A program made the translations under genes and the position numbers. Under the pieces are notes generated by a model. That model saw only the letters and a program-made list of their open reading frames with translations. It was not told the DNA's origin and searched no databases. A DNA stretch of 64,000 bases from Chloroflexota bacterium (GTDB taxonomy: Bacteria; Chloroflexota; Anaerolineae; Anaerolineales; Villigracilaceae), in the NCBI GenBank assembly GCA_021824575.1, contig JAKAKJ010000033.1, positions 1-64,000 of the forward strand, read 5' to 3'. Below, piece after piece: positions 24,886 to 26,530 of this stretch; position 1 is the stretch's first letter, and each line of letters opens with the position of its first letter.

Positions 24886-26492
24886 AAACGAAATATCTTT
24901 TTGCTAAAGACTTTATTTTTCTTGTTCCCGTTGCATTGATCGTCGGCGCGGGATTGGCCGCGCTTCAAAGCCCTCCGTTTTGGATTGGCTGGCTTGGATT
25001 TTCAGCCTTGCTTTTGCTTGGTCTCATTGGCATGATCGTTTTATGGCGTTGGGCTGGCAGCGGCAAAGCATTGGCATGGATGACCGGCTTGGCACTTTTA
25101 TTACGTCTTGCCTCCGGTGTCGCTGTTTACATCGCGCTGCCTATCAACGGTCATGATGTTCCCGATGACAAAGCCGGTTTTGTGTTCACCGACGCTCATC
25201 GCCGCGATGACCAGGCCTGGCAGTTGGCAAGCTCCGGTCAATCGCTTGTATCTGCCTTCGATAAAACGTATTACACCGATCAATACGGCGGATTGCTCGC
25301 GTTGAGCGCGCTGACATATAAAATCTTTTCGCCGGATGCTCACCGCCCATTATTGATTCTTCTCCTGGCGGCCTTGACCGCGGCCCTCGGCGTTCCCTTC
25401 TTTTATAAAGCGACGCGTCTGCTCTGGGACGAGAGGCTGGCCTCTGTTTCCTCGTGGCTTTTCGTTCTCTATCCGGAGTCGATCCTGACAGGCGGCGCGC
25501 AGATGCGCGAGCCTTTCCTGTTGACGTTTATCGCGATGGCGCTTTGGGGATTTGCAACCTGGTTGAAGCAAGGCGAGAATCAAATTGCTGGCATGTCCAA
25601 CCGAAGCAGTTTTATCTGGATGGGAGCGGCTTTGATTGGAATGCTGTTGGTTTCGCCTGCGATGGCATTGGCATTGATTATTTTGTTTGGCGGCTGGATG
25701 TGGTTCCGAGGCGAACGCAAGCGTTTGCCGTTGCCTGTTTTGATCACTGCCGGAGTCTTGTTCCTCACCGGAATTTTGTTTTTGGCATTCAGCCTTAGCC
25801 GCCAACACGATTTCAGCGGCGGATCGCCTATCGTGGTCATCTTGAACTGGGTTCGCAATTCGGTTAAATACGTGATCTATCAACTTGAGCGCGGGTCGGG
25901 TCAGGTTCAAAATGTTTTTTCCAAGATGAATCCGCTGATGCAATTTCTGTTTGTGGTTGGTTATGGAATTACCCAGCCGGTTTTGCCTCCTGCGTTTTTC
26001 GAGCCAACGACATTGACATGGCATATTATTGCCATCTTCCGTTCGATTGGTTGGTACGTTGTACTGCCACTTTTGATCTACGCGCCGATTGCCGTGTGGC
26101 GATCCGCGCCCGGACGCGAACGAAGGCTTTGGCTATGGCTCACGGCCTTCGTCTGGATTTGGATCTTGATTGCAGATATCCGCGCCGGTGGAAGTCAATG
26201 GGACAATCCACGTTACCGCCTCATCTTTTTCGGGATTGAAGCGCTGGTTATCGGATATGCGTGGCTATGGTGGCGCGATCATCGTGATTCGTGGCTGCCC
26301 CGGATTCTTGCGTTGGAAATATTATGTGTTCTTCTTTATGGTCAATGGTATGTAGCCCGCTATGTGACCAAGAATTTGAGTATGCATCTGCCAATCACGG
26401 TCGTGCTTCTCATGAGTTTGATTCTCGTGGCATTGATATTCATTGGCGGGTGGGCATGGGACCGTTGGCGCGGCGCAAAAAGGCGTGCTTGA
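24882..26492 (+). CDS. Polytopic membrane protein (GT-C/PMT-like)
   Basis: About a dozen hydrophobic segments; MKTKYLFAKDF start at 24882. Confidence 0.65.
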   Translation: MKTKYLFAKDFIFLVPVALIVGAGLAALQSPPFWIGWLGFSALLLLGLIGMIVLWRWAGSGKALAWMTGLALLLRLASGVAVYIALPINGHDVPDDKAGFVFTDAHRRDDQAWQLASSGQSLVSAFDKTYYTDQYGGLLALSALTYKIFSPDAHRPLLILLLAALTAALGVPFFYKATRLLWDERLASVSSWLFVLYPESILTGGAQMREPFLLTFIAMALWGFATWLKQGENQIAGMSNRSSFIWMGAALIGMLLVSPAMALALIILFGGWMWFRGERKRLPLPVLITAGVLFLTGILFLAFSLSRQHDFSGGSPIVVILNWVRNSVKYVIYQLERGSGQVQNVFSKMNPLMQFLFVVGYGITQPVLPPAFFEPTTLTWHIIAIFRSIGWYVVLPLLIYAPIAVWRSAPGRERRLWLWLTAFVWIWILIADIRAGGSQWDNPRYRLIFFGIEALVIGYAWLWWRDHRDSWLPRILALEILCVLLYGQWYVARYVTKNLSMHLPITVVLLMSLILVALIFIGGWAWDRWRGAKRRA

Positions 26493-26530
26493 CATGCTCG
26501 ATGGAGCGCTTATAATTCAGCGATTGAATT
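26489..26530 (+). promoter_or_regulatory. Sigma70-type promoter with overlapping palindromic operator upstream of gmd
   Basis: TTGACA(26489-26494)-N16-TATAAT(26511-26516); AATTCAGCGATTGAATT palindrome 26514-26530. Confidence 0.7.

Follow-up and report, generated by a model that had tools for sequence, protein, structure and literature searches.

An autoregulated repressor of the MarR type with a handful of targets is already a well-known type of circuit, and the described systems closest to the locus analyzed here include the family TIGR04176 (MarR family EPS-associated transcriptional regulator, MarR_EPS), whose canonical genes in Sulfitobacter, Roseivivax, and Loktanella are preceded, about 85-99 nt 5' of the start, by palindromes of the CGTTCA-N4-TGAACG type, the form in the Rhodobacterales being GCGTTCA-N4-TGAACGC. 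A second relative is the "winged helix-turn-helix transcriptional regulator" of the Chelatococcus plasmid pTAD1 (WP_063188699.1), which is followed directly by gmd, GDP-fucose synthase, and ABC permease genes, and has two TTCA-N5-TGAA sites at its own promoter, one of them between the presumed -35 and -10. The control of exopolysaccharide genes by a MarR-type protein is also represented by WggR/ExpG of Sinorhizobium meliloti, although this protein is an activator of galactoglucan genes, unlike the repressor proposed below. Among the solved structures, the top sequence match is FabT of Streptococcus pneumoniae (PDB 6jbx), which controls fatty-acid genes through a different operator; the match covers the winged helix only, and the C-terminal domain is not common to the two proteins.

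The window, that is, the whole 64,000-nt stretch of Chloroflexota DNA analyzed here, encodes a winged-helix regulator within an exopolysaccharide/capsule cluster, surrounded by gmd, a GDP-fucose-synthase-like gene, a Wzm/Wzt exporter, and glycosyltransferases (Table 1). It shares this type of location with the members of TIGR04176, and its N-terminal DNA-binding half is MarR_EPS-like, aligning with the family model over the winged helix with 68.2 bits, which is under the curated cut-off of 88. No genome among 301 of the Chloroflexota exceeded this cut-off. The family members have roughly 115 residues and the short single-domain type about 105, whereas the regulator has an additional C-terminal alpha/beta domain. 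Because of the score and this extra domain, the protein is MarR_EPS-like, and not a member of MarR_EPS. It does belong to the MarR-type winged-helix superfamily, given that it passes the PF01047 threshold (29.1 bits, against 24.6). In the AlphaFold2 model (pLDDT 88.5), a winged helix (residues 2-67) is followed by a long helix (69-106), which could dimerize, as judged from this monomer model, and by the small alpha/beta domain (111-154), and a PDB fold search with the model ranked MarR-type folds at the top, with a TM of about 0.45 over the winged helix. In the MarR-type superfamily, dimers form through the N- and C-terminal helices. The Chelatococcus protein, which is 34% identical over 92%, also has a C-terminal domain, albeit a longer one. 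No real relative of the regulator was found in the viral contigs searched.

Table 1. Features of the two promoters and the genes behind them (positions in the window).
Feature	Position	Strand	Evidence
-35 hexamer TTGACA, gmd promoter	26489..26494	+	sequence; 12/12 consensus promoter
-10 hexamer TATAAT, gmd promoter	26511..26516	+	sequence; 12/12 consensus promoter
Putative operator AATTCA-GCGAT-TGAATT; extended half-site TGAATTTTG reaching 26533	26514..26530	.	sequence, genome scan, conservation
gmd (GDP-mannose 4,6-dehydratase), the first gene to follow the operator	26550..27521	+	TIGR01472 434 bits (cut-off 415); PF16363
-10 TATAAT, regulator promoter	45987..45992	+	sequence
Putative operator AATTCA-GTCGC-TGAATT, covering the -10 and, presumably, the start site at the regulator gene	45990..46006	.	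sequence; conservation in 93/101 loci
Winged-helix regulator, 159 aa	46014..46493	+	TIGR04176 68.2 bits; PF13412, PF01047; AlphaFold2; PDB
NAD-dependent epimerase/dehydratase (SDR), ATGA overlap with regulator	46490..47521	+	sequence; PF01370
GDP-fucose-synthase-like reductase	47534..48505	+	NF047922 295 bits, under its 500 cut-off
Wzm/Wzt-type polysaccharide ABC exporter (permease 48509-49357, ATPase 49357-50649)	48509..50649	+	PF01061; PF00005, PF14524 Wzt_C

An earlier note on this DNA had read a consensus-like TTGACA-N16-TATAAT promoter at gmd, a palindrome, AATTCA-N5-TGAATT, starting within its -10, and a 24-nt block recurring 19.5 kb away, 5' of the winged-helix gene, and had proposed that the two genes share an operator. 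The sequence bears out the promoter, the palindrome, and the recurring block. The gmd promoter matches the consensus at 12 of 12 positions, with the N16 spacer, and is the only sigma-70-type match of this quality in the region; its -35 TTGACA is also seen in several relatives (e.g., L083, L085, L116, L124, L125, and L137). The exact palindrome AATTCAGCGATTGAATT has its first bases within the -10, and is followed by AAGGAG, the presumed ribosome-binding sequence, some 6 nt 5' of the gmd ATG. A second exact palindrome, AATTCAGTCGCTGAATT, lies 19,476 bp from the first, and the two share an identical frame, TTATAATTCAG-N4-TGAATTTTG (26510-26533 and 45986-46009), which ends 4 nt short of the ATG of the regulator gene. 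A further site with one mismatch (27545-27561), before a glycosyltransferase, was rejected, having no conservation in the genus.

The regulator promoter of the source genome has no good -35 hexamer. In the relatives, an alignment of 74 distinct contexts 5' of the regulator gave the block GTTATAATTCAG-N3-CTGAATTTTGGA, with near-random flanking DNA, an invariant TATAAT, and, in the -35 region, a less marked TTGAC; the -35 has at least five of its six bases in 36 of the 74. The invariance of the core was set in part by the search, which required those positions. Behind the regulator, the epimerase/dehydratase gene probably shares its transcript, and the subsequent reductase comes next after gmd in a pathway to a GDP-6-deoxyhexose. 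Only about 15 nt separate the presumed start site from the regulator ATG (45987-46014), with no Shine-Dalgarno sequence seen there, and the leaders are even shorter in two relatives (L222 and L246), which suggests that the regulator mRNA may be nearly leaderless.

The 3.64-Mb source genome contains four exact 17-bp sites, compared with none for the reversed-pattern control. Three of these sites, all on one contig (C27), are found at gmd, at the regulator gene, and at a sat/cysC gene (C27:74478), while the fourth (C16:8404) is inside a coding sequence and was set aside, being probably a product of chance; the other near-matches in this genome (G000) have no regulon gene adjoining them. Under a first-order Markov model of the exact 17-bp pattern, 1.2 sites are expected per genome (P = 0.03 for four or more), and 0.02 in 64 kb (P = 2e-4 for two or more). 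A chance resemblance between two AT-rich promoters might be argued from this genomic expectation and from the copy within a coding sequence, and copy number alone is in fact a weak case, being only mildly unusual. The comparison of genomes is decisive, however. The site is conserved in hundreds of genomes, and the reversed-pattern controls are all but empty, which refutes the chance explanation and leaves it almost no weight. The random density that the earlier note had named as fatal to its proposal is not what is seen, given that the sites cluster at the regulator and gmd promoters and are conserved across the order.

Of 152 family genomes, 137 encode the regulator, as do 301 of 400 sampled from the order Anaerolineales. 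Within the family, the longer form ATAATTCA-N5-TGAATTTTG, found twice in the source genome, occurs in 128 of the 152 genomes, usually with about two copies each, and its reversed control is absent from every one. An order-wide scan with AATTCA-N5-TGAATTTTG recovered sites in 180 of the 400 genomes, against a single match in the whole of the reversed control. In the other families of the order, sites are found at the regulator (55-66% identical to the source protein) or at gmd, and both are present, 1-2.4 kb apart, at three loci (L309, L313, and L315). The strict site also tracks the regulator, being found in 123 of the 137 family genomes that encode it, compared with five of the 15 that do not (Fisher P = 3e-6, with relatedness ignored, and several of these 15 being incomplete assemblies). 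The 14 regulator-bearing genomes that lack the strict 22-nt form have variants wherever they were inspected.

At gmd, the conservation extends to position. In 60 family loci, picked because they have a site that is not at the regulator, a gmd orthologue follows the site directly in 42, from about 15 genera, with the start typically 33-36 nt after the start of the palindrome, and nine loci of other families have the palindrome at a like position. The gmd site is conserved even when gmd and the regulator are on different contigs.

At the regulator itself, the site is located in the 150 nt 5' of the gene in 93 of 101 loci (a few genomes being represented twice). Two of the eight exceptions (L258 and L263) are 11-of-12 variants, while in four others (L213/L264, L236, and L244, the loci of G055, G054, and G080), the regulator comes after gmd, whose promoter has the operator (L102, L103, and L112). 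The remaining two (L242 and L248) resemble these loci in their upstream sequences. The loci of two genera (g13 and g21) that have the regulator inside the gmd operon keep the site at the gmd promoter only; where the regulator has moved into this operon, its separate site is gone. Since the palindrome is found at the regulator's own promoter in nearly all these loci, and since gmd precedes the regulator in most of the exceptions, autoregulation is predicted.

An inverted repeat near the start of a transcript could also act in the RNA, by forming a hairpin or attenuator in the leader of gmd. The predicted fold of the gmd palindrome region is no better than that of shuffled sequences (z = -0.58), however, with the arms of the palindrome unpaired, and sites found upstream of or between promoter elements are outside the RNA altogether. 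The hairpin was rejected on the fold result, and an RNA role of any kind is scarcely credible.

The additional targets are informative with regard to the nature of the site. In the source genome, the exact site at C27:74478 is 110 bp 5' of a gene (C27:74588) for a bifunctional sulfate adenylyltransferase/APS kinase (sat/cysC; NF004040, 830 bits), involved in PAPS synthesis, which is flanked, within the polysaccharide region, by sulfotransferase genes at 69190-70218 and 81124-81966 of the same contig, to the right of the window. The site is found at sat/cysC in genera g1 and g6, and in one genome (G013, L301), it precedes a PF13469 sulfotransferase gene, after which sat follows on the same strand. 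The presence of sulfotransferase and PAPS genes in a polysaccharide region suggests that a sulfated surface polysaccharide may be made. In several genera, the site is near a pair of methyltransferase and HisZ-like genes, divergent or neighboring (L131, L132, L291, L295, L297, L299, L304, and L328), and in several, it is found in operons that encode an Rrf2-type regulator together with a PstS-type phosphate transporter (L141-L145, L147, L148, and L327), in the form TTGACAAAATTCAG-N3-CTGAATTATGAT, in or beside the -35/-10 spacer. The methyltransferase/HisZ pair is, on its face, unrelated to polysaccharide, and the Pst operons likewise have no obvious fit; in the source genome, the methyltransferase/HisZ gene was found (C52) without the site. 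Single cases involve a Wzm permease (L329) and a flippase-like gene (L325). In genus g19, a site (L146; G072:C175) precedes a TusA-like gene and what looks, from a reading of the sequence, like a cluster of the sulfur-transfer/heterodisulfide-reductase type.

The palindrome thus occupies three positions in relation to the promoters of these genes: over the -10 and start site, in the -35/-10 spacer (Rrf2-Pst), and over the -35 region (sat and methyltransferase). It is therefore a protein site rather than a part of the core promoter, and a core-promoter-only reading was rejected, given that the place relative to the hexamers shifts between targets.

Another transcription factor might bind the conserved block, with the MarR_EPS-like protein merely one of its targets, and a second regulator, of the Rrf2 type, is indeed encoded at some sites. 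Rrf2 is absent from most sites, however, and the most constant location of the site is the regulator's own promoter. In addition, many relatives (L167, L169-L178) encode a paralogue of the regulator, 37-40% identical, with its own consensus promoter and a site at that promoter, GAGAATTCA-N5-TGAATTCTC, which keeps the AATTCA-N5-TGAATT core with different flanks; its right arm, of the TGAATTC type, is degenerate in some genomes, and no paralogue was found in the source genome. The two proteins have identical recognition-helix residues (G38, V40, N41, W42, K45, and R46), and differ in the wing (RAERKKLR, against SHLDRTRLK in the paralogue), as would be expected if the core were read by the helix and the flank by the wing. 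The alphaproteobacterial homologues likewise have matching half-sites at their own promoters, including the TTCA/TGAA palindromes of the Rhodobacterales members about 85-100 nt 5' of the start. The spacer of the site described here is N5, with AT-rich flanks, in contrast with the N4 and GC-rich flanks of the Rhodobacterales, and the Chelatococcus flanks are also GC-rich, with gmd directly downstream. From these sites, a rule can be drawn for the operators of the MarR_EPS family, TTCA-N4/5-TGAA with clade-specific flanks. Control by a different factor is thus most improbable, and the tie between the site and the winged-helix protein, predicted by the earlier note, gains support from these half-sites, as well as from the co-occurrence across the family.

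It is very probable, then, that the protein encoded at 46014-46493 has the palindrome as its operator. This protein would be an autoregulating, MarR_EPS-like repressor that also controls gmd and the genes of polysaccharide sulfation. The points against this operator reading are the 17-bp count, only mildly above chance, the replacement of a good -35 by the site at sat, the 14 regulator-bearing genomes without the strict form, the score of the regulator, under the MarR_EPS cut-off, and the poor fit of the methyltransferase/HisZ and Pst targets to a polysaccharide theme. The same protein might instead bind as an activator or dual regulator, given that the sat/cysC sites occupy the -35 place, where the -35 is poor, as it is at the regulator promoter of the source genome. 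This is unlikely, nevertheless, given that gmd and most relatives have near-consensus promoters, with the site over the -10 and start or in the -35/-10 spacer, where activators rarely sit. The site, its conservation, its positions, and its link to the regulator are observed, and binding by this protein, repression rather than activation, a sulfated product, and a ligand are predicted.

In the proposed repressor circuit, a dimer of the MarR_EPS-like protein would bind the full operator, CAAAATTCA-N5-TGAATTTTG, or, at the promoters in which the site is fused to the -10, TATAATTCA-N5-TGAATTTTG, where the left arm, at gmd and the regulator, is a compromise with the -10 box. At these target genes, the site overlaps promoter elements, and the bound dimer would cover the -10 and start site, blocking the RNA polymerase. 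The regulator would repress its own operon (the regulator, SDR, GDP-fucose-synthase-like reductase, and Wzm/Wzt exporter), the distant gmd, and, in this genus, the PAPS-making sat/cysC gene, so that the supply of GDP-6-deoxyhexose, its export, and, in this genus, the supply of PAPS would be switched together. The likeliest sensor of the releasing signal would be the small C-terminal alpha/beta domain. A more speculative extension, which is rather doubtful, is a supply-and-demand switch. In it, this domain would respond to a nucleotide sugar, to PAPS, or to a related nucleotide, and a single operator would tie the making of GDP-6-deoxyhexose to PAPS/sulfotransferase supply, to export, and, in some genera, to the uptake of phosphate, as a dedicated sulfated-polysaccharide regulon conserved across the Anaerolineales.

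A full-text literature search by the accession TIGR04176 returned no paper, and searches for a regulon study in the Chloroflexota and for the motif in papers on MarR found nothing on point; judging from the literature and database searches made, the regulator, operator, and regulon appear to be undescribed. Little is known of the control of transcription in uncultured Chloroflexota, and in this case, the sequences of an order allow a regulator to be read together with its operator and a small regulon. The site marks out a control circuit for surface polysaccharide that has been kept order-wide in a little-studied phylum, and the association of sulfotransferase and PAPS genes with polysaccharide genes is a pointer to sulfated surface polysaccharides.

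The region also encodes, at 53900-61331, a PseB-like dehydratase, a NeuB-family synthase, and a cytidylyltransferase, with a second cytidylyltransferase and NeuB at C27:78884-81048, which suggests that a nonulosonic-acid pathway may be encoded there.
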